The notes beneath the pieces were generated by a model. The model ran no database searches, had not been told where the DNA came from, and worked only from the letters and a program-made list of their open reading frames with translations. Shown here piece after piece: positions 1 to 16,041 of a stretch of DNA of 16,041 nucleotides; the stretch's first letter is position 1; each line of letters starts with the position of its first letter. Source of the DNA: Bryobacteraceae bacterium. GTDB taxonomy: Bacteria; Acidobacteriota; Terriglobia; Bryobacterales; Bryobacteraceae. The stretch spans positions 1 to 16,041 of the forward strand of contig JACMLA010000791.1 of the NCBI GenBank assembly GCA_014379815.1, written 5' to 3'. A program made the position numbers and the translations under genes.

Positions 1-787
1 GACGGCGCATGGACTGGGTCCACAGAACCGGGCTGGGAATCTGAGCAATCAGACCGTCTCGTGCGGCAGCGCCGGAACGAACAATCTCCGCGTTCCAGTT
101 CGAGATCAAAGGCATCGCCAGATCGAGGAAGGTGATGGCTTCCAGTTCCGGCTTCATTTCGGTCTGCGCAGGAGTCATCAGAGGGCAGTGGAACGGAGCG
201 CTGACGGCTAGGATTACGGCTCGCCTGGCACCTGCGGCTTTCGCCAGTTCCGCCGCACGGGCAACTGCTCCAGCGTGACCGGCTATCACGACCTGGTCCG
301 GTGAATTCAGATTTGCCGCAGTAACTATTTCGCCTTGGGCGGCCTCGGCGAGAACAGCGTCCAGCTTGCCTTCCGGGAGCTTCTGGAGTGCGGCCATCGA
401 ACCCTGCCCGGCAGGTACTGCCTTCTGCATGGCCAGCCCGCGCTTACGCACCAGACGCAATGCATCACTGAAGCTCAGCGCCCCGGCGGCGACCAGAGCA
501 GAGTACTCTCCCAGACTGTGCCCCGCGACGACGACTGGCTGGAACCCCTCTTCGACGAGCACGCGAAAGGCAGCGACAGAAACTGCGAGCAACGCCGGCT
601 GGGTATTCTCAGTGAGCTTGAGCTCTTCCTCAGGTCCCTCGAAACAGAGGCTGGACAAGGCAAAATCTAAAGTTGCATCGGCCTCCTCGAAGACATTCCT
701 CGCAGCGGAAAACTCGTTGTACAGTGACCTGCCCATTCCCGAAAATTGAGAGCCCTGCCCGGGAAAAAGAAATGCCAGACGCGTCAA
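1..787 (-). CDS. fabD: Malonyl-CoA:ACP transacylase FabD (3' end outside window)
   Basis: Transfers malonyl from CoA to acyl carrier protein to supply fatty-acid elongation in the cytoplasm. Reading the minus strand from a TTG at 787 gives an open frame to the window edge: about 262 of the roughly 310 residues usual for the family. Visible motifs are the N-terminal FLFPGQGSQ (residues 6-14), the nucleophile motif GHSLGEYSA with Ser91, the conserved Arg116 in LVRKRG, NSPDQVVIAG (161-170) and the catalytic histidine His200 in SAPFHCP. The TTG start is chosen because AAAGGAGG stands 4 bases upstream and the protein then begins MTRLAFLFPGQG as expected. The gene is divergent from the RND pump; neighbouring fab genes, if any, are outside the window. 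Identification is near certain; only the C-terminal fifth is unseen. Confidence 0.96.
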   Translation of the reverse strand, partial: MTRLAFLFPGQGSQFSGMGRSLYNEFSAARNVFEEADATLDFALSSLCFEGPEEELKLTENTQPALLAVSVAAFRVLVEEGFQPVVVAGHSLGEYSALVAAGALSFSDALRLVRKRGLAMQKAVPAGQGSMAALQKLPEGKLDAVLAEAAQGEIVTAANLNSPDQVVIAGHAGAVARAAELAKAAGARRAVILAVSAPFHCPLMTPAQTEMKPELEAITFLDLAMPLISNWNAEIVRSGAAARDGLIAQIPSPVLWTQSMRR

Positions 788-907
788 ATTGCCTCCTTTG
801 TTTCCGCATGCCGTCGGAGTAAGCGCGGCGACCGTTATGCTACAAACAGAGTAACCTTCGGCCCACAGTCAATCGCCTTCCTTGTACGACGGCCCAGGAG
901 TGTCTTC
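788..907. promoter_or_regulatory. Divergent control region fabD / RND pump
   Basis: These 120 bases separate the two divergent start codons and must carry the 5' signals for both genes. Good Shine-Dalgarno sequences flank it: AGGAGG just before fabD on the minus strand, and AGGAG at 897-901 before the RND start. A TTGACT lies on the minus strand near 870-875, but no convincing -10 box at proper spacing was found, so no promoter is called precisely. Confidence 0.4.
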
Positions 908-3900
908 TTGAGTATTTCGGAAATTTGCGTTCGACGACCTGTTTTTGCCTTCATGCTGATTTCGTTCCTGGTTGTGCTGGGACTGTTCAGCTTTGCGGAC
1001 CTCGGCGTCGATCTTTTCCCGCGCACCGATCCTGCTACTGTTTACGTCCGGGTACAGCTACCTGGAGCGAGTCCGGATGAGGTTACGTCCCAGGTCGTCA
1101 TGCCTCTGGAAGAATCTATCGCTTCGGTAAGCGGCATCGAGGAACTTCGGTCGATTGTTTCCGAAGGCAACGCCAACATCATCGTCACCTTTGTGCTCGA
1201 ACGCTCGATCGGCGAGGCGGCTGAAGACGTTCGCGAGAAAGTACAAGCGGCGATCCGAAAGCTTCCGCCTAATGTGCTCCCGCCGACTGTAGCGAAAGCA
1301 GATCCGGACAGCGATCCGGTGATTACTGTGGCTGTTGCCGGGGAACGTTCCACCCGCGAGTTAACCGAGATCGCCGACAAACAGATTCGTCGCTCCTTCG
1401 AGACGGTAGATGGCGTCGGCGGCGTGGACATTCAGGGTGGTCAGTTTCGTCAGATCAACATTTTCCTCGATCTTGACAAGATGAATGCCTACAACCTGAG
1501 TGCTCAGGAAGTCCGGGGCGCTGTCGAGACTGAGAATGTTGAAACACCCGGTGGCCGCATCGTCCGGGGCGCGACCGAGTTGGGCGTCCGTACACTCGGA
1601 CGCGTTGAGAGCATCGGCGAGTTCAACGACATCATTGTCAAAAACGTCAACGGCGTCCCGGTGCGTATTCGGGATGTCGGGAACGCTGAAGACGGAATGG
1701 CGGAGAAGCGGACGTTTTCCTACTACAAGAACAAGCCTGCCGTCATCCTTGAGATCCGCCGCCAGACTGGCACTAACGCGGTAAAGGTCGTTGAAGATAT
1801 TCAGACGAAGATCGCGGACCTGAACAAGGCGCTTCCTCCGGGTGTGCACATCGACACCATTAAAGAGTCGGCGTCTTACATCAAGGCGTCGGTGGCCGCG
1901 CTGGAAGAGCACCTAATTCTGGGCAGTTTTCTTGCCTCGCTCATCGTATGGCTTTTCATTCGCGACTGGCGCATGGTCCTGATCAGCTCGATCGCGATTC
2001 CCACGTCGATCATCACCACCTTCACGTTCATGAAGATGATGGACTTCAGCCTGAACTCGATGACTTTGCTCGGGCTCACGCTGGCGGTGGGTATTGTCAT
2101 CGATGACGCGATCATCGTGATGGAGAACATCTGGCGCTTCATTCAGGAGAAGGGCCAGCCTCCAATGCAGGCTTCGATCGAGGCGACCAAAGAGATTTCC
2201 CTGGCGGTGATTGCGACTACGCTTTCGCTGGTGATTATCTTCGTTCCGATCGCCTTTATGAGCGGGTACGCCAAACGATTTATGAATCAGTTTGGCTGGA
2301 CCATGGCGCTTTCGATCATGGTGTCGATGCTTGTCGCTTTCACCCTCACTCCTACTCTCAGCGCGAGGCTGCTTGGATGGAGACGCAAGAAAGGGGAGCT
2401 CACCAAGCACGATCACAAGGTTGGGTTCTTCGAGCGGATTTACGTGGGCATGCTGGCCTGGTCGATGCGGCACCGGCTGGTCATCATGGCGATCTGTGTG
2501 GTTGTTCTTGGTTCCACGTTCATCATCAATCAGTACGTTGGACGCGACTGGATGCCTCAGGACGACCAGAGCGAGCTGGGTGTCTGGCTGGAGCTGCCGG
2601 AAGGTTCTTCTTCTGATGCAACCGAAAAGCTCTCGCTAGAGGTCGCACGCAAACTGGAAAAGGTTCCCGGCGTGATTGCCTCCATTCCTGCCAGCCAGGG
2701 AATCGTTCCGCGAATCACGATGAGCTTCATAACGGTGCTTCTGAAGCCGCAGGATGAGCGGGAAGAGATTGGCGCGATGGGCCAGAAAGTTCGCGGTGTG
2801 CTCCGGGAGTACGCGTTTGCCAGGCCCCGGGTGACATTCCCGAACGCACTTGGTGGACGCGATACGTTCGCCCCGATTCGCGCACAGCTGCTTGGGCCCG
2901 ATATTCGTCCGCTGGTTACCATCGCCCGCGACGTTAGCGCACGCATGATGAAGGAGCCTGCACTGACGGACGTGAAGGCCAACCTCAACCTGAACAATCC
3001 TGAGGTACAGGTCAATATCGACCGCCAGCTTGCATCCGATCTTGGCGTGCGTGTTTCTGACGTCGCCAGCGCCGTGCGTCTGCTGATGTCCGGTGAAGAC
3101 CAGATCTCGACTTTCAAGGAAGGCGCCGAGCAGTACCCGGTGACCATGAGGCTGATGCCAGGACAGCGGGATGATCCCAATGCGCTCAGCCGGCTGCTGG
3201 TCCCGTCGGCGAAACAGGGTTTGATCCGGCTCGACTCGATTGCCAAATTGGAAAGAGGTCTTGGGCCGGGGCGCGTGGACCGTTTCAACCGGCAGTTTTC
3301 GGTAGGCATTTACGGGAACACCGCACCGGGGCACTCGCTGGGTGAAGCAGCCGCAATCACACAAAAGATCATCGATGAAGCGGGTCTGCCTCCAGGCTAC
3401 ACGATGTCATTCTCCGGCCAGGTAAAGATTCTGGAAGAGACCACGCTAAACATGCTGCTGGCTTTTGGCCTGGCATCGATCTTCATGTACATGGTGCTGG
3501 CGGCTCAGTTTGAGAGCTTGTCGCATCCTTTCGTGATCCTGCTCACGCTGCCGCTCTCGATCCCATTTGCTTTGCTTTCCCTGATTGCTACCGGGCGTAC
3601 GCTGAATCTCTTCAGTGCACTGGGGATCCTGCTGCTGCTTGGCATCGTAAAGAAGAATGGCATTCTGCAAATCGACTATATGAACCATCTTCGGAACGAA
3701 GGCTATTCGATCTACGATGCGGTCATTGAAGCAAACCGTGTCCGGCTTCGCCCGATTTTGATGACGACCCTTTCGATTGTCGCGGGTCTGGTTCCAACCG
3801 CCATCGGCGTTGGCGTAGGTGCCTCGCAGCGTTCGGCAATCGCTGTAACGATCATCGGGGGCCAGATGCTGTGCCTTCTTCTCAGTCTGATCGTTGTGCC

Positions 3901-3994
3901 GGTCGGCTACTCGTACGTGGAGCAGTGGCGTGAGTCCGGTGCGCGGCGCAGAACGCACGAAACAGCCACACCCGTCCCAGCTATGGGTGACTAG
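908..3994 (+). CDS. RND efflux transporter permease (AcrB/HAE1-type)
   Basis: Inner-membrane proton-driven pump subunit that would work with a periplasmic adaptor and an outer-membrane channel. The 1028-residue length fits the family. The protein opens with RRPVFAFM and a first membrane helix, has a second helix bundle after two periplasmic loops, and carries the TM4 proton-relay motif GIVIDDAIIVMEN with Asp399 and Asp400. TM10 has GIVKKNGI with Lys915/Lys916, matching the relay lysine region. The frame stays open back to an ATG at 746, inside fabD, but the TTG at 908 has AGGAG seven bases upstream and gives the usual family N-terminus, so it is preferred. No adaptor (HlyD-like) or OMF gene is adjacent, so partners must be encoded elsewhere. 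The substrate cannot be read from the sequence. Confidence 0.95.
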   Translation: MSISEICVRRPVFAFMLISFLVVLGLFSFADLGVDLFPRTDPATVYVRVQLPGASPDEVTSQVVMPLEESIASVSGIEELRSIVSEGNANIIVTFVLERSIGEAAEDVREKVQAAIRKLPPNVLPPTVAKADPDSDPVITVAVAGERSTRELTEIADKQIRRSFETVDGVGGVDIQGGQFRQINIFLDLDKMNAYNLSAQEVRGAVETENVETPGGRIVRGATELGVRTLGRVESIGEFNDIIVKNVNGVPVRIRDVGNAEDGMAEKRTFSYYKNKPAVILEIRRQTGTNAVKVVEDIQTKIADLNKALPPGVHIDTIKESASYIKASVAALEEHLILGSFLASLIVWLFIRDWRMVLISSIAIPTSIITTFTFMKMMDFSLNSMTLLGLTLAVGIVIDDAIIVMENIWRFIQEKGQPPMQASIEATKEISLAVIATTLSLVIIFVPIAFMSGYAKRFMNQFGWTMALSIMVSMLVAFTLTPTLSARLLGWRRKKGELTKHDHKVGFFERIYVGMLAWSMRHRLVIMAICVVVLGSTFIINQYVGRDWMPQDDQSELGVWLELPEGSSSDATEKLSLEVARKLEKVPGVIASIPASQGIVPRITMSFITVLLKPQDEREEIGAMGQKVRGVLREYAFARPRVTFPNALGGRDTFAPIRAQLLGPDIRPLVTIARDVSARMMKEPALTDVKANLNLNNPEVQVNIDRQLASDLGVRVSDVASAVRLLMSGEDQISTFKEGAEQYPVTMRLMPGQRDDPNALSRLLVPSAKQGLIRLDSIAKLERGLGPGRVDRFNRQFSVGIYGNTAPGHSLGEAAAITQKIIDEAGLPPGYTMSFSGQVKILEETTLNMLLAFGLASIFMYMVLAAQFESLSHPFVILLTLPLSIPFALLSLIATGRTLNLFSALGILLLLGIVKKNGILQIDYMNHLRNEGYSIYDAVIEANRVRLRPILMTTLSIVAGLVPTAIGVGVGASQRSAIAVTIIGGQMLCLLLSLIVVPVGYSYVEQWRESGARRRTHETATPVPAMGD

Positions 3995-4050: not shown

Positions 4051-4278
4051 ATGCCAAAGAAGCCTGTTGTTACCGATCCGGAGTTAGGAGTGGATGATGA
4101 GATTCTTCGTAAAGCGAAAGAAGCTCTCGCGTCCGACCGGATTCGCGCTGCCGTGCGCTGCGTGATTTGCGGCAGCGAGGCCGCACCTACCTCCACCGAG
4201 GAACTGTGCTGGGTTTGCCGTCGCTTGAAAATCAGTGCGTGGCGTGATGTGGACCCCCAGCTTCCGGCGCCTGAGTAG
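4051..4278 (+). CDS. Small zinc-ribbon-like protein (75 aa), function unknown
   Basis: A 75-residue protein with two CxxC knuckles, CVIC (Cys37, Cys40) and CWVC (Cys53, Cys56), 12 residues apart. This is the spacing of a small zinc ribbon that binds one metal ion (inferred from motif only). The N-terminal third is acidic and helical (DDEILRKAKEALASDRIR), the C-terminal tail is proline-rich. The ATG at 4051 is chosen because it starts MPKKP and begins the charged, well-formed part; an in-frame GTG at 4003 would add 16 residues but lies inside the tandem repeat. No strong Shine-Dalgarno sequence precedes either. The last 47 bases overlap the end of the convergent ornithine cyclodeaminase-family gene. 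I do not recognise a named family; a regulator or an adaptor for a larger enzyme are both possible. Confidence 0.7.
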   Translation: MPKKPVVTDPELGVDDEILRKAKEALASDRIRAAVRCVICGSEAAPTSTEELCWVCRRLKISAWRDVDPQLPAPE

Positions 4279-5188
4279 TTCTGGCGGAGCGCTCGTACAC
4301 TAGCGCCGCAGTTGCCACATCCTCCAGCCCAAGTCCGACCGACTTGAAGACGATCGTGCGGGTTTCGTGCGGTTTGGTAACGCTGCCAGCCACCAGGTTT
4401 TTGAGTTCGAGGACACGGTCCCAATCGCCGTCTGCGAACGCCAGCAAAAGGTCACCAGCCTCAATGCGACAGGCTTCCTTGTCGTCCACTACAACCAGAG
4501 CAGAGCGGACCAGGCCTTCCGGAATCTCGCGACGTTGCGCGCTGTTCGATCCCATGGCAAGGACCAACGCACCTTCGCGTATGCCCTCCGCGAGCACAGG
4601 ATCTTTGGCGGACGTAGCCGTCACGACAACATCTGCTTGCGCGACCGCCGCTTCCGCCGACTCCGCTGCCGTCACCTTCACCGACAACAAAGCCTCCATC
4701 TCCTCTGCGAAACGTAACCGCCTGTTTGCATCCCGGCCAAATACTTCCACCGTTCGGAGTGGCCGAACGGCAGCCAGTGCTTCCAGCTGTGTCCAGGCTT
4801 GAAAGCCTGTGCCGATACAGGCTACCTGAATCTGATGGTCTTCCGGAAGAAGGATATCGGCGATGAGCCCGCTTACCGCTCCTGTTCGGATCTGGCCCAG
4901 CGCATTGGCTTCAAACTGCGCGACCGGCTCCGCAGTCTGCGCGTTGTAGAGGAGGAAGGTGAAGTACGCGCCATGCCCGGGATGCGTGCTGTACACCTTG
5001 GTGCCAAACCATCCGCCCCATGCACCAGCCATCGAGTGCAGAACCGACCCGCCCGAGAGGATCAGACGACGTCGGGGCTGGTTCTGAGCGCGTCCCTCAG
5101 CGTAGTCACGGAAGGCGACGCGAAGCCGCTCAATTGCGTACTGCATGGGCAGCAGCCGACGAACGTCATTCTCGGTGAAGTGCAGCAT
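4232..5188 (-). CDS. Ornithine cyclodeaminase / mu-crystallin family NAD(P) enzyme
   Basis: A cytoplasmic NAD(P)-dependent enzyme of 318 residues, normal for the family. It shows the family N-terminus MLHFTENDVRRLLPM, the conserved substrate-site lysine in GTKVYS (Lys64) and arginine in QIRTGAVSG (Arg101), the dinucleotide-binding loop CIGTGFQAW (124-132) and the C-terminal block FKSVGLGLEDVATA (281-294). Family members act as ornithine cyclodeaminase, alanine dehydrogenase or ketimine/pyrroline-2-carboxylate reductase; the sequence alone does not separate these. The loop usually containing a catalytic aspartate reads GSNSAQRREIP, somewhat unlike classical ornithine cyclodeaminases, so a reductase or dehydrogenase role is at least as likely. 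A GGGAG lies almost against the ATG, so spacing is unusually short. The gene is divergent from the sugar operon across 48 bases. Confidence 0.9.
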   Translation of the reverse strand: MLHFTENDVRRLLPMQYAIERLRVAFRDYAEGRAQNQPRRRLILSGGSVLHSMAGAWGGWFGTKVYSTHPGHGAYFTFLLYNAQTAEPVAQFEANALGQIRTGAVSGLIADILLPEDHQIQVACIGTGFQAWTQLEALAAVRPLRTVEVFGRDANRRLRFAEEMEALLSVKVTAAESAEAAVAQADVVVTATSAKDPVLAEGIREGALVLAMGSNSAQRREIPEGLVRSALVVVDDKEACRIEAGDLLLAFADGDWDRVLELKNLVAGSVTKPHETRTIVFKSVGLGLEDVATAALVYERSARTTQAPEAGGPHHATH

Positions 5189-5236
5189 TCTCCCATCTTG
5201 CCTTCATGACACAATTAGGGCAATGGCGGAACTACG
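5189..5236. promoter_or_regulatory. 48-bp divergent spacer before the sugar operon
   Basis: The starts of the ornithine cyclodeaminase-family gene (minus) and the four-gene operon (plus) are only 48 bases apart, so their promoters must overlap each other or the coding ends. Plus strand: TTGCCT begins near 5199, and an AT-rich ACAATTAG lies at 5211-5218, too close for a normal -35/-10 pair. GGCGGA near 5225 may serve as ribosome binding site for the ATG at 5237. No operator was recognised. Confidence 0.35.
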
Positions 5237-6199
5237 ATGATTTCGAAGTACCCCCAGTTTGACCGCACACGCCTTCGCATACTGCCTTTAGCGGAACGAA
5301 TCCATGATCTGCAACTGGAGCGCTGGCTAGCTCTGGAGGATAGTACTCCCTCGTTTGCAGACCCTTGTTTACCGGAGCTGGCCTCGCGCATTCGTGGAGC
5401 GTCGGACACTGGCTCAGCGCGCATTCTTATGATGGGTGCCCACGTACTGCGGGCAGGCGTTAACCGGCATATCATCGACCTGATGGAGCGCGGCTACATC
5501 ACCGCCCTAGCCACCAACGGGGCGGGCGCTATCCACGACTATGAGCTGACCCGAATCGGCGCAACTACCGAAAGCGTCGCCCGCTACATCAGCGAGGGTC
5601 AGTTTGGGTTGTGGCAGGAAAGTGGTGAATTGAACGAGATCGTCGCGGAAGCGGCTGATCTGGGACTTGGGTACGGAGAAAACGTCGGACGGCGCATCCA
5701 GGCGAGTCAATGGCCCCATCGTAATCTCAGTGTCTTCGCTGCCGCATACCGGCTCGGCATCCCGGTTACCGTTCACGTCGGCATCGGATATGACATCCTT
5801 CACGAGCATCCTAACTGCAGTGGGTCCGCCCTGGGTGCGGCCAGCTATACCGACTTTCTGATCTTTGCAGCGAGCATCGAGAAGCTGGAAAACGGAGTTC
5901 TGCTGAGCTTCGGATCCGCCATCATGGGCCCGGAAGTTTACTTGAAAGCGCTGGCTATGGCTCGCAATGTCGCACACCAGGAAGGCCGGTCTATACGTCG
6001 CTTTACGACCGCGGTTTTCGACATGGTTCCCATTACAGGCGACATCCATCGCGAACTCCCAAAGACCGATCCAGGCTACTACTTCCGTCCACATAAGACC
6101 ATGCTGGTGCGCACCGTAGCCGATGGCGGCGAGAGCTTCTACTTTTGCGGAGATCACAGGGCTACTCTTCCGGCTCTTCGCAAGGAATTGCTGTCGTGA
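5237..6199 (+). CDS. Deoxyhypusine-synthase-like protein, function unknown
   Basis: A 320-residue protein that resembles the Rossmann-type fold of deoxyhypusine synthase. The stretch MMGAHVLRAGVNRHIIDLME (65-84) followed by ALATNGAGAIHDYEL (90-104) matches the position of the synthase NAD-site strand TTAGG(V/I)EED. VHVGIGYDILHEHP (179-192) and VLLSFGSAIMGPEVYLKA (221-238) fall where the later NAD-binding segments lie. The region carrying the catalytic lysine of true synthases is not visible, and bacteria have no eIF5A substrate, so hypusine formation is unlikely. It is the first gene of a four-gene operon with sugar kinases and an isomerase, and its stop overlaps the next start by four bases (GTGA), so a role on a sugar phosphate, perhaps using NAD, is inferred. 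The family link is by pattern only; the substrate is unknown. Confidence 0.7.
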   Translation: MISKYPQFDRTRLRILPLAERIHDLQLERWLALEDSTPSFADPCLPELASRIRGASDTGSARILMMGAHVLRAGVNRHIIDLMERGYITALATNGAGAIHDYELTRIGATTESVARYISEGQFGLWQESGELNEIVAEAADLGLGYGENVGRRIQASQWPHRNLSVFAAAYRLGIPVTVHVGIGYDILHEHPNCSGSALGAASYTDFLIFAASIEKLENGVLLSFGSAIMGPEVYLKALAMARNVAHQEGRSIRRFTTAVFDMVPITGDIHRELPKTDPGYYFRPHKTMLVRTVADGGESFYFCGDHRATLPALRKELLS

Positions 6200-7188
6200 A
6201 TATTGAAACGATTCTGGCGGGATTGTCCGACCTTCGCGTACTTGTAGTCGGGGACATCTGTCTGGATCGCTGGTGTCACTACGATCCAACGCTTGCAGAA
6301 GCGTCCGCAGAAACCGGTATTCCCCGGACTGCCGTGGTGCGAACGTCTGTCACCCCTGGCGCGGGGGGAACCATTGCCAACAATCTCGCTTCGCTTGGAG
6401 TGGGCTCTATATCTGTCCTTGGCGTAATTGGCGAGGACGGTTTTGGCTTTGAGTTACGTAGCTCGCTTGCACTCCGAGGCGTGGATTCCAGTTTGCTGAT
6501 CACAAGCCGGGGAGTCAACACATTCACGTACACCAAACTGATTGACCTACACACCCACGAGGAGGACCTCGCACGGGTGGACTTTATCAACACCCGGCCT
6601 TTGCCCTCCGAGGTCGAGCAATCCCTGGTCGCGGCGCTTGTAAGCAGCTGGGAGTTGTTCGACGTGGTGATGGTCTCGGATCAGGCAGAAACCGGAGCAG
6701 GAGGCGTAGTGACGCCGGCGGTTCGGGACGCGATCAATCGGCTGGCCGTTGAGATGCCGGGTCCGGTCGTGTGGGTCGATTCCCGCAAACGCCCGGAAAT
6801 GTTCCACAACGTGATCCTGAAACCCAACCAGCAGGAGGCAGAAGACGCTTGCCGCCGCAAGTTTGGCACAATCGATTTTGCTCGCCTTGCAGTAGAGTGT
6901 AAAGCTCCTCTGATGATCGTGACTCATGGAAGTCGCGGCGCACTGGTGATCGAAGGCGGCAACCAACGCTGGATCTCCGCGCGTCAGGTGACACCAGTGG
7001 ACATTTGCGGCGCAGGGGACAGCTTCTCCGCCGGTGCCGCATGCGCCCTTCGCATTACGGGCTCCAGTGATGAGGCAGCGCGATTCGGGAATCTGGTTGC
7101 CTCCGTGACAGTGACCAAGAAGGGCACCGGGACGGCGAGCCCGGCCGAGTTGCTTGCTGTGTCATCCGGGGAAGCCGCGCGGGTATGA
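6196..7188 (+). CDS. PfkB-family sugar kinase, HldE N-domain-like
   Basis: Phosphorylates a sugar or sugar phosphate with ATP. The 330-residue protein has the ribokinase-family layout: VLVVGDICLDRW at the start (residues 15-26), the glycine pair in TPGAGGTIANNLASLG (53-68), the HldE-like LKPNQQEAE (209-217) and the signature VDICGAGDSFSAG with probable catalytic base Asp275. VGDxxLDRW and the KPNxxE block point to the kinase half of HldE (heptose-7-phosphate 1-kinase) rather than fructokinase; the adenylyltransferase half is absent. The GTG start at 6196 overlaps the upstream stop and has AAGGA nine bases before it; an in-frame ATG at 6145 would sit deep in the preceding gene. The downstream ROK gene starts at ATGA on its stop. 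Substrate specificity remains inferred. Confidence 0.88.
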   Translation: MNIETILAGLSDLRVLVVGDICLDRWCHYDPTLAEASAETGIPRTAVVRTSVTPGAGGTIANNLASLGVGSISVLGVIGEDGFGFELRSSLALRGVDSSLLITSRGVNTFTYTKLIDLHTHEEDLARVDFINTRPLPSEVEQSLVAALVSSWELFDVVMVSDQAETGAGGVVTPAVRDAINRLAVEMPGPVVWVDSRKRPEMFHNVILKPNQQEAEDACRRKFGTIDFARLAVECKAPLMIVTHGSRGALVIEGGNQRWISARQVTPVDICGAGDSFSAGAACALRITGSSDEAARFGNLVASVTVTKKGTGTASPAELLAVSSGEAARV

Positions 7189-8039
7189 ATACGCTTGCCA
7201 TCGATATCGGCGGAACCAAATTCAGCACAGCAGTCTTCAGCGAAGACGCGGAGATGATTGCGCGTGAATCCCGTTCTACGGATCGTGAAGGCGGACGAGC
7301 CTGGCTAACCGAGCAATTAGGGAGCCTGATAGCCGACTGGAAACAGCAGCTTCGGTGGGGGCGGTGCGGCGTTGGATTTGGCGGACCTGTCAACTTCGCC
7401 GGCCAGCGTGTGGTGCACTCGACGCATGTTGCCGGCTGGAGTGATTTCGACCTTGTGGCGTTCCTTGAGGCGGAATGCGGCGTGCCCGTGGTTATGGACA
7501 ATGACGCGAATGCCGGCGGTTTGGGCGAGGCGTACTTTGGGGCCGGCAAAGGCTATGACCCGTTGTTCTATATGACGCTTTCGACCGGGATTGGGGGCGG
7601 AATCGTGCAGGAGGGCCGCGTTCTGCGGGGAGCCGATTCCTATGCGGGAGAGATCGGACACCTCACGATCCGACCAGGTGGACCGGATTGTCTCTGCGGT
7701 TCGCAGGGATGCTTCGAACGGATGTGTTGTGGACTCTGGCTGGAACGCGACTATGGCCGTCCTGTGCCTGAGCTTCTGGCCGATACCCACTTCGTAGCAA
7801 GCTACGTAGTGGACCTTGCGCTCGGGCTCAAGTCCGCAATCATGCTGCTAAACCCTGCCCGCATTGTGATTGGCGGGGGCATCAGCAAGAGTGGCGACAC
7901 TCTCTTCGAGCCACTGCGTGTAGAGTTGCGCAAACAGATAACTTCGTGGTCGCGGGCACGTATCGACGTAGTACCCGCCCAGCTTGGGGACGACAGCGTG
8001 CTCTACGGAGCTCTTGTCCTCGCAGGAGAGAAAGTATGA
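7185..8039 (+). CDS. ROK-family sugar kinase (glucokinase-like)
   Basis: Predicted ATP-dependent hexose-type kinase of 284 residues. Motifs in order: phosphate-binding AIDIGGTK (5-12), the catalytic aspartate in VMDNDANAGGLGEA (Asp107), the substrate-site EIGH (156-159) and the zinc motif CLCGSQGCFE with Cys169, Cys171 and Cys176, then VIGGGIS (228-234). There is no N-terminal helix-turn-helix, so it is an enzyme rather than a ROK repressor. It starts with ATG overlapping the stop of the PfkB gene (ATGA) and its own stop overlaps the SIS gene the same way, which indicates translational coupling. Two different kinases and an isomerase in one operon suggest that more than one phosphate or more than one sugar is handled. 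Glucokinase, N-acetylmannosamine kinase or another hexose kinase activity cannot be told apart here. Confidence 0.9.
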   Translation: MNTLAIDIGGTKFSTAVFSEDAEMIARESRSTDREGGRAWLTEQLGSLIADWKQQLRWGRCGVGFGGPVNFAGQRVVHSTHVAGWSDFDLVAFLEAECGVPVVMDNDANAGGLGEAYFGAGKGYDPLFYMTLSTGIGGGIVQEGRVLRGADSYAGEIGHLTIRPGGPDCLCGSQGCFERMCCGLWLERDYGRPVPELLADTHFVASYVVDLALGLKSAIMLLNPARIVIGGGISKSGDTLFEPLRVELRKQITSWSRARIDVVPAQLGDDSVLYGALVLAGEKV

Positions 8040-8611
8040 ACACCACAGCAACAGCTTCGTTCGTGGATCAGTATCGATCGGAACTCGTCAGGACGCTGGA
8101 GACCCTCGACACAGCAAGAGTGGACGAGGCAATTGAGTGGTTCCGCGAGGCCCGAGATACCAATCGCCACATCTTCACGTGCGGAAACGGCGGCAGTGCG
8201 GCGACTGCTTCGCACTTCGCAACGGATATTATCAAGGGCGCTTCCTACACTCGCGAGAAGCGCTTCCGCATCCTGGCATTAACGGATTCGCTCTCCACGC
8301 TAACGGCGTATTCCAACGATGTCAGCTATGAGTGCGTCTTTGCCGAGCAGCTGAAGAATTTCGCGGAGCCTGGAGATCTGCTGCTTGCGATCAGCGGTTC
8401 TGGCAACTCGCCTAATGTTCTGCGCGCGGTGGAGTATGCCAACTCGGCAGGTTGCAAGACGATTGCGCTCACAGGAAGAGATGGAGGAAAACTTGGTCCT
8501 CTGGCGCAATTGAATATCCAGGTTCCTGTGCCGCATATGGGGCGGATTGAGGATGCTCATATGATTGTTTGCCATATGATTTGCTACTACTTCATGGATA
8601 CGGAAGGTTAG
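8036..8611 (+). CDS. SIS-domain sugar-phosphate isomerase, GmhA-like
   Basis: A 191-residue single SIS-domain protein close to sedoheptulose-7-phosphate isomerase GmhA in length and layout. It has TCGNGGSAATASHFATDI (48-65), the phosphate-binding ISGSGNSPNVLRA (119-131) and the C-terminal IEDAHMIVCHMI (171-182). In the known GmhA zinc site the ligands are His, Glu, Gln and His; by spacing the equivalents here are His60, Asp64, Glu172 and His180, so two of four are changed. The activity is therefore probably a GmhA-type ketose/aldose isomerisation but not certainly of sedoheptulose 7-phosphate. The ATG at 8036 overlaps the ROK stop and has AGGAG upstream; the longer frame back to 7946 is inside the ROK gene. 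It is the last gene of the operon. Confidence 0.88.
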   Translation: MNTTATASFVDQYRSELVRTLETLDTARVDEAIEWFREARDTNRHIFTCGNGGSAATASHFATDIIKGASYTREKRFRILALTDSLSTLTAYSNDVSYECVFAEQLKNFAEPGDLLLAISGSGNSPNVLRAVEYANSAGCKTIALTGRDGGKLGPLAQLNIQVPVPHMGRIEDAHMIVCHMICYYFMDTEG

Positions 8612-9682: not shown

Positions 9683-10056
9683 AACATCGCTTATCTTCAC
9701 AAGACGGCCACCTCTGATGTCGGCGTTAGCTTCCCTGATTTTCGAGGCTGCGTGACGGCCGGTAAGACCGTGGAGTAGGCAGATTATCAGCCCTTAGAGG
9801 CGTTAGCCTTTGCACGTCCAAGGCATGGTTGAAGATGGCGAGGACGTACCAGCGCTATCGACGCTTGACCAGTCGGCGGGCGACCCGGGACTGAGAGGCG
9901 CTGTCGCTGTTCGATTCTCTCTTCAGCCGTTGGAGAGAACGGTACGGGCCAACATTACTGCGCGAAAGCCAACTGGAAAAGATCGCACGGAACGCTCGGC
10001 TCGAAGGTGGTCCCCCGCTGACCACCATTCTGCGCGCAAATCCCTTGGCTGATTAG
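9683..10056 (+). pseudogene. hicB: hicB antitoxin remnant (one stop, two frameshifts)
   Basis: Three frames together spell a HicB antitoxin. First, from about 9683: IAYLHKTATSDVGVSFPDF then RGCVTAGKTVE, ended by TAG at 9776-9778 where relatives continue EEA. The same frame goes on to LEALAF, where an extra T in TTTG (9809-9812) shifts it; the next frame reads LHVQGMVEDGEDVPALSTLD and RGAVAV. A second +1 shift near 9961-9972 leads to QLEKIARNARLEG and a stop at 10054-10056. No start codon remains at the 5' end, and no hicA toxin was recognised upstream. HicB proteins pair a partial RNase-H-like fold with a DNA-binding tail and neutralise HicA. The 3' end touches the end of the convergent PEP-CTERM gene. 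Confidence 0.85.
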
Positions 10057-10721
10057 GCGGTTCGGCGCCGGGATAATACGAGACTTAGCAGTCCGCCGCT
10101 TAGGAGCAGCATGGACGAGGGCTCGGGTGTGGTAACCGGGGCGACGTCGTTGTCTGGTGCGAAGTCTGCAATCTGCTCGTTATTCGCAAGGCCGGTACGG
10201 GGCCACAGGTTCACCTTGTAATCAACAGGCAGCAGACCTTTGGACGCTAGAAAGTTTGCCGAGACCACGCCCTGGATCATGTTCCCGCTTACGGTGACGG
10301 AGCCGGGCGCCAGATTGACGTTTGCGACCGGATTCGGAGCGAAGTCGATGATTGTTCCCGTGAGATCGGGGCGGAGTACCACGATGATGTCGAAAAGAAC
10401 GCCGGGGCGGAAGTCCCCGAAAAACTGATTGTGGGTGCCGCGATCCACGCCCCACACGTAGAGGGCTTCTTCGGTGGTTCCGATCGCGCCATTGTGAAAG
10501 CTTCGGAAGGTAAAGTCCGTTCCATTGAAGAAAACTTCGGCTCTCAGGACATCGAGGTCTCCGTTGTGAGGGCCGTTGAAGCTCGGCAAGAAGTCATCAG
10601 CCGCATCGATGATGGGTGCTGCGAAAACGGGCGCGCTTGTGACACCGCAGACCAGCGCGGTGAGGATCATTAGTATTGAGCGAATGACAGATGAGTTCTG
10701 TCGAAACGAAAACAGGATCAT
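10053..10721 (-). CDS. PEP-CTERM sorted exported protein, function unknown
   Basis: A 222-residue secreted protein. Residues 12-34 form a Sec signal peptide (SVIRSILMILTALVCGVTSA then PVFA with probable cleavage after Ala34 or Ala35). The C-terminus has the exosortase sorting signal: TPEPSSM around Pro199-Glu200-Pro201, a short leucine-rich membrane helix and a basic SRRR end. Such proteins are anchored and cleaved by an exosortase, none of which is encoded here. The mature part is rich in Asn, Gly and Phe and predicted beta-structured; no enzymatic motif was seen. The ATG at 10721 has AGGAG nine bases upstream. The gene is intact and ends against the hicB remnant. A surface or biofilm-matrix role is typical of the class but is inference here. 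Confidence 0.85.
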   Translation of the reverse strand: MILFSFRQNSSVIRSILMILTALVCGVTSAPVFAAPIIDAADDFLPSFNGPHNGDLDVLRAEVFFNGTDFTFRSFHNGAIGTTEEALYVWGVDRGTHNQFFGDFRPGVLFDIIVVLRPDLTGTIIDFAPNPVANVNLAPGSVTVSGNMIQGVVSANFLASKGLLPVDYKVNLWPRTGLANNEQIADFAPDNDVAPVTTPEPSSMLLLSGGLLSLVLSRRRTA

Positions 10722-12141: not shown

Positions 12142-12572
12142 TTCGGTTCATCGCGCGACCGGCTGGAGCGAGCCTATGAGCTGGATGCCGAGATACGTCG
12201 TGACCTGCCACCGATGTTCGCTAAGAACCTGGGTGTACCGTGTCGCTCACAACGTTGCCACTGGGCACGTGATTCGGCAGCGGCGGATCACGGACCGGCT
12301 GGTGAGCATTGAGTCCATCGAGGCCATGCCCGGTATCGATCACGTGGAACTGGCCGCCACCCAGGCCGAAGCGCTCGATCGTCTCTCGATGCTTAGTCCA
12401 GCGCCTGAAACCACTCGACCGGCAAATCATCGTTTCCTATCTCGAAGGAATGGACGCAAGCCCGATCGGCGATCTTACCGGGTTGTCGTCGGGCAACATC
12501 GCGATGAAAGTTCACCGAATCAAAAACATTCTGAGACGCTGGTTCGGCGAAGGAGGACTTCATGCGAAGTGA
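12142..12572 (+). pseudogene. ECF sigma factor remnant
   Basis: Three frames rebuild an ECF (sigma-70 family) factor. Frame 1 (12142-12207): FGSSRDRLERAYELDAEIRR, the start of region 2. A deletion of perhaps 60 bases follows, because the DNA jumps directly to frame 2 (12212-12394): RCSLRTWVYRVAHNVATGHV and onward, the end of region 2 and the linker. An extra A at 12395 then shifts to frame 0: QRLKPLDRQIIVSYLEGMDA, SPIGDLTGLSSGNIAMKVHR and a stop at 12570, a well-kept region 4 helix-turn-helix. The N-terminus before 12142 is degraded. Such factors direct RNA polymerase to specific promoters. Its 3' end overlaps the start of the membrane-protein gene by 11 bases, a normal coupled arrangement. 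Confidence 0.8.
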
Positions 12573-13009
12573 TTTCCACATTAAGGACTCGCTAGGGATC
12601 TGGCAAGACCAGCCTACGGAGCCATTCACAATGTCAGCAAACGCGTTGCGCTACAGGGCGCTGGAGCGGCAGTCAAAAGCCCGTCTTGAGGCGCAGGTTT
12701 CGGTGGTCATCGGCCTCGTCCTGAGCGCCTTCTTTGCGTGGACCTTAACCAGAGAAGCGACGCGACTACCTCCGCCACCGTTGGTGGAGGTCAGGACTGC
12801 CCTTCCTGCTACCAGGCATGGCTATGGTCATTGTGGGCACAGGGGCACAAAAGGCACCCCCGAATCCGTTGCGGAATGCTTTTCCCTTCTTCATGGTTCT
12901 CGCTGTGTGGGCCGTACTGTTTTTCGCTATGAGAAAGAAGCTCGGACGGGAGAATCTCCAGCAGGAGATCGAGGATTTGCGTGCGTTTGAGACAGAGAAT
13001 CACTCATGA
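12562..13009 (+). pseudogene. Sigma-linked membrane protein with internal deletion
   Basis: The ATG at 12562 has a perfect AGGAGG ahead of it and opens with IWQDQPTEPFTMSANALRY, the start of a protein family commonly encoded just after this kind of ECF sigma factor in Acidobacteriota (from memory). A membrane helix follows (VSVVIGLVLSAFFAWTL). Around 12749 the family sequence jumps to another frame: EKRRDYLRHRWWRSGLPFLL, PGMAMVIVGTG, a second helix FPFFMVLAVWAVLFFAM and the tail LQQEIEDLRAFE, stop at 13007. Relatives have about 50 more residues between the two parts, so a deletion of more than 100 bases plus a frame change is inferred. Left in frame, translation would run to 12990 with a nonsense tail. 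The intact protein may be an anti-sigma-like partner. Confidence 0.75.
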
Positions 13010-13105
13010 GGGAAGCCTTACCTCCCTCTGCGAACTTCGCAACGTGACTCATTGCTGGTTGAGAGCCGTGAACATTTGTGGGCCAATTGTTTAAAGGAGT
13101 CTGCC

Positions 13106-14329
13106 ATGTCGAGCCAGTCCGCGGACGGAACGCGTCCTCTACCCGACCGTCCCAACCTTCAGCACTTTGAAGATCAAGCCAGAGATCTGCTCGAGGCAGG
13201 GGGCGCGAAGTCTCTTACCGACGCCCAACTGCAAATCGCCACGCTCTATGGGTTCGCAAGCTGGCCGAAACTCAAAGAGCACTTAGATTCTCTTGAAGAG
13301 GTTGGACAGCTTAAGCAGGCAATCGACAGCAACGATCTCGATCGAGTCAGGAGTCTCATGAGCAGTAACCCGGCGTTGCATCGAGCACCGTTGGGGTACG
13401 CACAGAATGGCCCGCTTACTTGGGTCGCGGAATGCCGCGTTCCGTGGGAACCGCCGTCACCGGTAAGGCTCGCGATGGCTGAGTGGATGATCGAGCATGG
13501 ATCCGACGTTCACCAGGGTGGCGACGGGCCTTTGATGCGGGCAGCGCTTCGGGGTGAGCGGATCCCGATGATGGAACTTTTGGTCGCGCATGGCGCAGAT
13601 GTGAACGCGGAGTGGAACGGCGATTTTCCGATTCTGTTTGCGCCATGTGAATCTGTCGCGCCTGCCGCGATGAGCTGGCTTCTGGAACATGGTGCGGATC
13701 CGAACTGCCCAAAACCGGGGAGGCGAATGACCGCTCTGGATTACTTGATCGGAACGTATGCCCGCTCGCAGGACCTGGCGACTTGTATCGATCTCCTGAT
13801 CAACGCTGGTGGCGTCACGCGCTACAACCTGCCCGGTGTGCTCGACGTTCTTCAGGACCGGGTGGATCGATTAAGAGGGCATCTGGATGACAACCCGGAC
13901 CTGGTAAACAGACGGTTTCCCGAGCTGGACTGTGGCAGCACTGGGGCTCGGCGACTTTTGCTGCAGGGAGGGACGCTTCTGCATGTTGCCGCGGAGTACG
14001 GCAGTATGGAATCGGCGAGGCTTCTGTTGGCACGGGGAGCGTTGGTGGATGCGCGGGCACTCGTTGATGAAGCTGGAGTCGGTGGACAGACCCCGATCTT
14101 CCATGCCGTGACGCAGTTCCGCGATACGGGACTTGCCATGACACGCTTGCTTCTGGACTCCGGAGCCGACCTATCTCTGCGGGTAAAGTTGCCGGGACAT
14201 TACGAGAAGCCGGAGGAAGTCGTGGAGTGTACTCCTCTGTCTTACGCCATGCTTTTCCCGGGTTCTGAATTCCCGGGCGGCAACGAGGAGACCGTTCGCC
14301 TGCTTCGCGAGAGACTAGCCCCGGAGTAG
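13106..14329 (+). CDS. Ankyrin-repeat protein
   Basis: A 407-residue, apparently cytoplasmic protein-protein interaction protein with no signal peptide. Residues 11-63 (LPDRPNLQHFEDQARDLL ... LYGFASWPKLKEHLDSL) form the N-terminal helical domain often placed before ankyrin repeats in soil Acidobacteriota and Planctomycetes. Ankyrin-type repeats follow: around 121-170 (MAEWMIEHGSDV; MMELLVAHGADVNA), 186-200 (MSWLLEHGADPN), 288-315 (GGTLLHVAAEYGSMESARLL) and 327-358 (GQTPIFHAVTQ; RLLLDSGADLSL). The ATG at 13106 is chosen because GGAG stands about eight bases upstream; the longer frame from 13052 has no such signal. It is intact and lies next to the broken sigma/membrane pair. Its partner protein cannot be predicted. 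Confidence 0.9.
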   Translation: MSSQSADGTRPLPDRPNLQHFEDQARDLLEAGGAKSLTDAQLQIATLYGFASWPKLKEHLDSLEEVGQLKQAIDSNDLDRVRSLMSSNPALHRAPLGYAQNGPLTWVAECRVPWEPPSPVRLAMAEWMIEHGSDVHQGGDGPLMRAALRGERIPMMELLVAHGADVNAEWNGDFPILFAPCESVAPAAMSWLLEHGADPNCPKPGRRMTALDYLIGTYARSQDLATCIDLLINAGGVTRYNLPGVLDVLQDRVDRLRGHLDDNPDLVNRRFPELDCGSTGARRLLLQGGTLLHVAAEYGSMESARLLLARGALVDARALVDEAGVGGQTPIFHAVTQFRDTGLAMTRLLLDSGADLSLRVKLPGHYEKPEEVVECTPLSYAMLFPGSEFPGGNEETVRLLRERLAPE

Positions 14330-15624: not shown

Positions 15625-16041
15625 CTAGAAGGTGATCTTCGCGGCGATCTGTAATTGCCGAGCGGGGTTCGGCGCTCCCGCAACGCCGCCAATCGTACCG
15701 AACGCGGCTGAACCGAACGTACTATTCGGTGTACCGAACTCGGTGCGATTGAAAGCGTTGAAAGCCTCGAATCGCAACTGGAAACGCAATCGCTCGGCCA
15801 GCGACGTTGACCAAAAGAGGGAGAGATCCACATTGTTTGTGCCAGGCCCAAAGACGTCGGGTAAAGTTCGCGACACATTGCCAAAGGTAAAGGCCGCTGG
15901 CTGCGAGAATGACGCTGGCGCAAAGTACTGCGCTAGCAGAGCAGTCGTATCGGCGTGGTCTCTACCTGAGGTGATTCCGGTACTATCGGGTCGCTGCCCG
16001 CCACCAAAGGAGTTGCTGGTGTTGTTGGCTACCGAGAGCAA
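15625..16041 (-). CDS. TonB-dependent Oar-like outer-membrane receptor, C-terminal part
   Basis: The frame enters from beyond the window edge and ends at 15625, giving the last 138 or so residues of a much larger protein. The closing part is typical of the large carboxypeptidase-regulatory/TonB receptors abundant in Acidobacteriota: LRFEAFNAFNRTEFGTPNS, then FGTIGGVAGAPNPARQLQIA and the final aromatic strand KITF that ends the beta-barrel. Upstream is a run of Asn/Ser/Gly and RDHADTTALLAQYFAPASF. The N-terminal plug and signal peptide lie outside the window. It would sit in the outer membrane and import or bind a large substrate such as a polysaccharide or peptide with TonB energy. The secreted histidine-rich protein gene follows at once. 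Confidence 0.88.
   Translation of the reverse strand: MLSVANNTSNSFGGGQRPDSTGITSGRDHADTTALLAQYFAPASFSQPAAFTFGNVSRTLPDVFGPGTNNVDLSLFWSTSLAERLRFQLRFEAFNAFNRTEFGTPNSTFGSAAFGTIGGVAGAPNPARQLQIAAKITF

Follow-up and report, generated by a model that had tools for sequence, protein, structure and literature searches.

Several described systems are close to the locus reported here. The E. coli-type ADP-heptose pathway, as set out in an excerpt of PMC10948575, has counterparts of its isomerase and kinase families in our cassette, of its HAD-fold phosphatase in relatives of the cassette, and of its later steps in HldC-like and clade-2 GSU2086 genes located elsewhere in related genomes. Unlike that pathway, the cassette has a kinase and an isomerase that score under the family cut-offs, the isomerase being a metal-site variant, and it adds a ROK kinase and a clade-1 deoxyhypusine synthase (DHS)-like protein and is without HldD. 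In the same excerpt, a HygP/GmhB/HldE route is described that leads to ADP-D-glycero-D-altro-heptose.

Another such system is a Geobacter sulfurreducens gene group, in which the excerpted accounts (PMC5585712, PMC3495685) give the locus tags GSU2084 (GmhB), GSU2085 (hldE), GSU2086, and GSU2087 (gmhA), GSU2088 being a glycosyltransferase. The Tn-seq defects of GSU2085, GSU2086, and GSU2087 are similar (−3.1, −3.2, and −3.7), and the three genes matter for growth on electrodes (PMC5585712). GSU2086, the name member of the family discussed below, is found with GmhB, HldE, and GmhA; the Geobacter HldE is, however, bifunctional, and no ROK kinase is among the four tags. No paper assigning a function to GSU2086 was found in the open-licence literature.

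Results

A coupled four-gene cassette

The window, the 16,041-nt contig JACMLA010000791.1 of a Bryobacteraceae bacterium (GCA_014379815.1), carries at positions 5237-8611 four open reading frames on the same strand (Table 1). An earlier note on this DNA had described them as a coupled set joined by three 4-base stop/start overlaps, and the frames bear this out. Of 565 relatives found, 80 were retained and, with the window, make up the 81 loci compared here. Since a 4-base overlap recurs in most adjacent gene pairs of the relatives, the overlaps are beyond chance. The divergent ornithine-cyclodeaminase-family gene (4232-5188, PF02423, a different family from the DHS-like protein) was considered as a further participant and set aside; its product was included as a query in the tblastn search, and no such neighbour was seen in the relatives.

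Table 1. Features of the cassette and its upstream border. Overlap counts refer to the 80 retained relatives and the window.
Feature	Position	Strand	Basis or comparison
DHS-like protein, 320 aa, clade 1	5237..6199	+	NF052581 (GSU2086 family)
PfkB kinase, 330 aa, HldE-N-like, GTG start	6196..7188	+	PF00294, TIGR02198, 4e84 match
ROK-family sugar kinase, 284 aa	7185..8039	+	PF00480, glucokinase 3vov match
GmhA-like SIS isomerase, 191 aa, two-position metal-site variant (Glu to Asp, Gln to Glu)	8036..8611	+	PF13580, TIGR00441, 1x92 alignment
Stop/start overlap GTGA (DHS-PfkB)	6196..6199	+	4-base overlap in 67/77 with the pair
Stop/start overlap ATGA (PfkB-ROK)	7185..7188	+	4-base overlap in 44/57
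Stop/start overlap ATGA (ROK-SIS)	8036..8039	+	4-base overlap in 27/40
48-base gap before the divergent gene; HAD gene here in most relatives, none in the window	5189..5236	.

The DHS-like protein belongs to the GSU2086 family

The protein encoded by the first gene matches NF052581 (GSU2086) with 376.3 bits over residues 7-316, above the curated cut-off of 250, and no Pfam family at E 0.001. Its scores to the deoxyhypusine synthase family PF01916 (DS; 11.6 bits, residues 56-102) and to the ArgZ-like C-terminal domain PF21570 (19.2 bits) are both below the cut-off of 27, and PF21570 appears as a precomputed label on some distant clade-1 relatives. The predicted structure (pLDDT 95.5) has the fold of deoxyhypusine synthase and of the NAD-binding AgrE/ArgZ domain. 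The label "DHS-like" given by the earlier note is therefore right as fold and wrong as family membership. An HDxE motif is common, in the alignment, to the window protein, AgrE, ArgZ, and the LOR/SDH protein 3c2q; by their entry titles, the AgrE/ArgZ C-terminal domain and 3c2q belong to ornithine metabolism, 3c2q only putatively. The genomic partners of the DHS-like protein are, in contrast to those of deoxyhypusine synthase, sugar-phosphate enzymes.

At least 8,000 relatives were scored. The GSU2086 family splits into two clades, of which the window protein belongs to clade 1, and K237 and E233 are invariant across both. A catalytic lysine is a feature of deoxyhypusine synthase. None of eight pattern matches on viral contigs was a relative. 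No SIS-DHS fusion was seen in the best 120 of 7,993 scored matches to an artificial SIS+DHS query, which was uninformative because the list was filled by DHS-only proteins.

The kinases and the isomerase

The description of the second and fourth products as HldE-N-like and GmhA-like holds only below the curated cut-offs. The PfkB kinase scores 104.6 bits to PF00294 and 139.6 bits to the HldE kinase domain TIGR02198 (cut-off 345), its best match among solved structures being the heptose-7-phosphate kinase 4e84; the isomerase scores 77.6 bits to SIS_2 (PF13580) and 128 bits to GmhA (TIGR00441, cut-off 209.45). The ROK kinase is above the cut-off of PF00480 (206 bits, cut-off 22.9) and below that of the glucokinase subfamily TIGR00744 (172.9 bits, cut-off 260.35), with glucokinase 3vov as best match among solved structures (E 7.8e-41).

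When aligned with GmhA 1x92, the isomerase departs from the GmhA metal site, reading HFATD and RIEDAH in place of HxxxE and RIQExH. The variant is shared by the cassette copies: the Asp is present in 35/35, and the Glu replacing Gln was found in 32 by pattern and in three more (L005, L006, L007) by eye. The change at two conserved GmhA positions, together with PfkB and SIS scores far under the HldE and GmhA cut-offs, leaves room for a sugar other than sedoheptulose 7-phosphate.

The module in relatives

The set has four genes in the window and five in relatives. The full Bryobacterales order is HAD phosphatase, DHS-like protein, PfkB, ROK, and GmhA-like isomerase, and the HAD gene lies directly upstream in 75/81 loci. 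Counted over the 81 loci, HAD is present in 77, DHS in 81, PfkB in 77, ROK in 58, SIS in 41, and all five in 38; no HAD gene was found in L030, L053, L072, and the window. HAD and DHS are fused in one protein (P0347, whose called start falls after the HAD FDFDGT motif) and apparently in another (P0087, whose sequence, on a contig of 2,929 bases, starts inside the HAD domain). Recurrence extends beyond this genome and phylum, which refutes uniqueness: a Chloroflexota plasmid bears HAD-DHS-PfkB-SIS, and a related set, with a nucleotidyltransferase-PfkB fusion, a DHS-like protein, and a SIS protein, is found on a Solidesulfovibrio plasmid.

In eight Bryobacterales genomes, the module members are largely co-retained. 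ROK is kept in 8/8, away from the cassette in three (G006, G007, G008), and the variant isomerase in 7/8, away from it in three (G005, G006, G008); it was not found in G007. Given these dispersed copies, we discarded the view that the genes must form a fixed unit of four. Each of the eight genomes has two GSU2086 members over the cut-off, representing both clades, and in 5/8 the cassette PfkB is the sole HldE-N-like match above 74 bits.

The earlier note had remarked that GmhB, an adenylyltransferase, and HldD are missing. None is within the window's cassette, and HldD over the cut-off was found in 0/8 of these genomes; the absent steps have candidates, namely the HAD protein for GmhB, a stand-alone HldC-like gene for the adenylyltransferase, and clade-2 GSU2086 for HldD. 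The HldC-like gene is present away from the cassette in 8/8 genomes, one match being over the cut-off, though TIGR02199 matches may take in other nucleotidyltransferases.

Clade 2 and HldD do not co-occur in 199 Acidobacteriota genomes

Canonical gmhA lies within two genes of clade 2 in 11/59 clade-2 loci, and in one Acidobacteriota genome without HldD (G184), gmhB, clade-2 GSU2086, hldE, and gmhA stand together in this order, matching the set of Geobacter tags. When the listed gene places were compared by eye, this was the sole canonical hldE neighbour noticed, and no clade-1 protein was seen directly beside canonical hldE. Among 199 Acidobacteriota genomes of unstated completeness, clade 2 is present in 58 and HldD (matches at E 1e-60 or better) in 50, and both occur together in 0, against 14.6 expected (Fisher 1.4e-9, uncorrected for kinship). 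Clade 1 occurs together with HldD in G032 and G058, so the window protein cannot be read as a plain substitute for HldD.

A quick, single-gene infB tree with long branches was built for 92 genomes, eight of 100 fetched rows, each belonging to the group that lacks both genes, having been dropped for want of a clean frame or motif. It covers 45/61 GSU2086 genomes and 36/50 HldD genomes (those with a listed infB place), and one of 43 GSU2086-labelled rows (G164) has clade 1 only. On this tree HldD requires seven changes, at least six of which are forced by starred branches.

Discussion

The explanation that we prefer, and hold with about as much belief as doubt, is that the cassette is a variant heptose-phosphate module in which the DHS-like protein performs an NAD-dependent step, with clade 2 probably standing in for HldD. 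A heptose-like sugar phosphate, one of the options that the earlier note had offered, is the likeliest substrate class. The four genes would be the core of a five-enzyme module running parallel to the early steps of heptose synthesis. Starting from sedoheptulose 7-phosphate or a closely related ketose phosphate, the isomerase may yield an aldose phosphate, the PfkB kinase would then phosphorylate the anomeric carbon of the latter, and the HAD enzyme, encoded elsewhere in the window's genome if present, would take off the distal phosphate. The NAD-dependent step proposed by the earlier note agrees with the fold, which is that of NAD-dependent enzymes; the step itself we infer, and it would probably be redox-neutral, acting on the sugar carbon chain, e.g. 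by epimerisation. For the ROK kinase, free or salvaged sugar is a possible substrate. The GSU2086 family overall would be a heptose-pathway family, clade 2 probably acting in HldD's place.

Several points count against this explanation: some clade-1 loci look catabolic, PfkB and SIS score low and the isomerase is a variant, clade 1 coexists with HldD in two genomes, some HldE-positive genomes have neither HldD nor a GSU2086 member, and the window has no HAD gene. It is somewhat unlikely, in our judgement, that the cassette serves uptake and breakdown of a rare sugar, with ROK phosphorylating it, a ketose bisphosphate arising through the isomerase and PfkB, and a side product being cleared or the breakdown finished by the DHS-like and HAD proteins. 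The Chloroflexota copy is flanked by a sugar ABC transporter, Gfo/Idh, deoC, and a GntR regulator; the G032 and G058 copies adjoin MFS Nuc_H_symport and sodium symporter genes; a phosphofructokinase is in the L156 cluster; an aldose 1-epimerase lies beside HAD-DHS-PfkB in L026 (Pfam-tested) and, similar by sequence, in L010, L059, and L062; and glucokinases are nearest to the ROK protein. However, the module has no conserved aldolase, the nucleotidyltransferase-PfkB fusion of clade-1 relatives L094 and L186 points to an activated sugar, L094 is situated among pseudaminate/neuraminate-type genes, and the GSU2086 family is tied to gmhB-hldE-gmhA.

The exclusion of clade 2 and HldD could reflect lineage history only, the two genes belonging to separate lineages and acting on unrelated substrates. 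Both labels are indeed strongly clustered on the infB tree, the association of GSU2086 with HldE over the cut-off is modest (43/61 with GSU2086 against 72/138 without, p 0.019), and of 115 HldE-positive genomes, 30 lack HldD as well as GSU2086, which implies that an epimerase is not obligatory. We consider this account unlikely, as HldD genomes are nested several times inside GSU2086 lineages (G094 by G083, G133 by G062, and G022, G183, G142, and G159 within another) and clade 2 keeps company with canonical gmhA and, in G184, with the gmhB-hldE-gmhA operon. A genuine role of the DHS-like protein in polyamine metabolism or protein modification (as deoxyhypusine or homospermidine synthase, or as ornithine cyclodeaminase), its sugar linkage being incidental, seems very improbable. 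The fold matches such enzymes and an ornithine-cyclodeaminase-family gene lies divergently in the window, but the Pfam DS score is below the cut-off, the divergent neighbour is from a different family, and the linkage to sugar enzymes, HAD fusions included, is near constant in the retained loci.

A bolder form of the heptose-module explanation, which we put forward tentatively, is that heptose epimerisation has a second solution, not related to the first, in the GSU2086 family: an NAD enzyme of DHS fold that repeatedly replaced the short-chain-dehydrogenase epimerase HldD in Acidobacteriota and Geobacter. The window's clade-1 copy would then hold, by extension from clade 2, the central place in a parallel pathway that leads to a different activated heptose and has an isomerase, kinases, and a phosphatase of its own. 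A testable function is offered here for the very large, unassigned GSU2086 family. If the proposal is right, the DHS fold would have a part in carbohydrate metabolism, and for bacteria without HldD, e.g. in Geobacter-type LPS, a missing step of heptose synthesis would be supplied. The HygP route differs in that the excerpt describing it mentions no DHS-like protein (PMC10948575); by the same description, it resembles the proposed pathway in that a non-GmhA sedoheptulose 7-phosphate isomerase can supply HldE-type enzymes with a different heptose.

The cassette belongs to a conserved five-gene module

The four reading frames proposed in the earlier note, joined by three 4-base stop/start overlaps, were borne out by the window sequence. 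Pfam assigned genes 2–4 to the PfkB, ROK, and SIS families, and no Pfam match at E 0.001 was obtained for gene 1. Its product, which resembles deoxyhypusine synthase (DHS), belongs to NCBIfam NF052581, 'GSU2086 family protein' (376 bits; cut-off 250). By NCBIfam scores, the cassette kinase is similar to HldE-N, at 139.6 bits where membership begins at 345, and the isomerase to GmhA, at 128 bits where it begins at 209.

Features of the window
Feature	Position	Strand	Match
RND efflux permease	746–3994	+	PF00873, 878.8 bits
Ornithine cyclodeaminase/mu-crystallin family	4232–5188	−	PF02423, 164.9 bits
DHS-like	5237–6199	+	NF052581
PfkB	6196–7188	+	
ROK	7185–8039	+	
GmhA-like SIS	8036–8611	+	
C-terminal PEP-CTERM sorting signal	10053–10721	−	PF07589, 24.6 bits
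Sigma-factor-like, first part (by eye)	12176–12595	+	
Sigma-factor-like, second frame	12309–12572	+	Sigma-70 region 4, 25.5 bits
Ankyrin-repeat protein	13052–14329	+	PF00023 and others
Outer-membrane beta-barrel protein, C-terminal end, cut by window edge	15625–16041	−	PF25183, 102.3 bits

A species-genome scan yielded 565 loci encoding relatives; the best 80, almost all labelled Acidobacteriota or Bryobacterales (the two labels Arcobacter and Acidimicrobiia are probably due to mis-binning), were retained and combined with the window. With presence set at tblastn >100 bits and some loci cut by contig ends, these 81 loci contained DHS-like (81), HAD (77), PfkB (77), ROK (58), and SIS (41) genes, the complete set being found in 38. 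The HAD gene (PF00702, 40 bits; cut-off 26.4) directly adjoins the DHS-like gene upstream in 75 loci, and was not found in L030, L053, L072, and the window among the 81 checked. The 4-base overlaps are conserved in 67/77 DHS–PfkB, 44/57 PfkB–ROK, and 27/40 ROK–SIS pairs. In two proteins HAD and DHS portions are joined: P0347, whose called start lies within the HAD domain (HAD portion 69% identical to the HAD of the Chloroflexota copy, DHS portion 54% to the window), and apparently P0087, from a short contig (64% over 141 HAD residues, followed by the DHS portion).

Eight genomes from the scan (G001–G008) were searched for co-retained genes. ROK orthologues (67–73% identity) were present in all eight; those of G006, G007, and G008 are not linked to the cassette. 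The variant isomerase was present in seven (not found in G007), unlinked in G005, G006, and G008. HldC-like nucleotidyltransferases occurred in all eight, one above cut-off, and HldD above cut-off in none (top score 137 bits; cut-off 274.6). The cassette PfkB is the sole HldE-N-like kinase above 74 bits in G001, G003, G004, G005, and G007; a further one (328–343 bits) is encoded in G002, G006, and G008.

Two clades of the GSU2086 family

A 77-sequence tree resolved two clades, both with full support. Clade 1 (27 rows) includes the window, plasmid copies from Chloroflexota (L093) and Solidesulfovibrio (L094), and L186; the other 50 rows form clade 2. L094 and L186 carry a nucleotidyltransferase–PfkB fusion and an SIS gene, with split transketolase genes near the DHS-like gene (by annotation and by sequence, respectively); the group is possibly a transketolase-fed heptose cluster. 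A same-strand SIS gene lies within two genes in 11 of 59 clade 2 loci.

Aligned motifs of GmhA 1x92 read HFSSE and RIQEVH, while those of the window isomerase read HFATD and RIEDAH. In GmhA the two variant positions bind the metal. The variant Asp was found in 35/35 cassette isomerases, as was the variant Glu (32 by pattern, L005–L007 by eye); isomerases adjoining clade 2 genes retain Glu and Gln (11/11).

In many Acidobacteriota genomes uvrA directly adjoins the clade 2 paralogue (L081–L088 and clade 2 loci). Other clade 2 genes lie between queA-like and tilS/ftsH-like genes (named by eye); housekeeping neighbours are frequent and the place is stable.

Clade 2 and HldD are mutually exclusive in 199 Acidobacteriota genomes

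Among 199 Acidobacteriota genomes, GSU2086 scored above cut-off in 61 and HldD in 50; the two coincided in G032 and G058, both with clade 1 only. Clade 2, present in 58, never occurred with HldD (14.6 genomes expected; Fisher 1.4e-9, uncorrected for kinship). Of 115 genomes with HldE above cut-off, 43 had GSU2086 only, 42 HldD only, none both, and 30 neither. To account for HldD, a 92-genome infB tree requires 7 changes, no fewer than 6 of them on starred branches; the figures for GSU2086 are 10 and no fewer than 7. HldD genomes are nested within GSU2086 lineages (e.g., G094 by G083, G133 by G062). In control genomes, HldD exceeded its cut-off in E. coli and Caulobacter, and GSU2086 in none.

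In genome G184, gmhB, a clade 2 GSU2086 gene, an hldE with both domains, and canonical gmhA follow one another in this order on one strand; no HldD was found there in the 199-genome search. This GSU2086–hldE adjacency is paralleled by adjacent hldE and hldD in several HldD genomes (e.g., G102, G155). PMC3495685 and PMC5585712 describe, in Geobacter, GSU2084 as heptose bisphosphate phosphatase, GSU2085 as hldE, GSU2086 as hypothetical, and GSU2087 as gmhA, with electrode Tn-seq values of −3.1, −3.2, and −3.7 for the last three.

From these sequence comparisons, we infer that the GSU2086 family is part of heptose-type sugar metabolism, and clade 2 appears to behave like a replacement for HldD, described in PMC10948575 as an NAD+-dependent epimerase. 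The clade 1 protein of the window co-occurs with clade 2 or HldD and would therefore serve a parallel pathway, whose remaining enzymes would be HAD, PfkB, ROK, and the variant isomerase. We favour a pathway that would build an activated heptose; salvage or degradation of a rare sugar, which is supported by transporter genes adjoining some clade 1 copies, is less favoured.

Other genes of the window

The ornithine cyclodeaminase/mu-crystallin gene is divergent from the cassette and differs in family from the DHS-like protein. The sigma-factor-like gene is apparently split across two frames, with the region 4 match in the second only, slightly below the cut-off of 25.7 bits.
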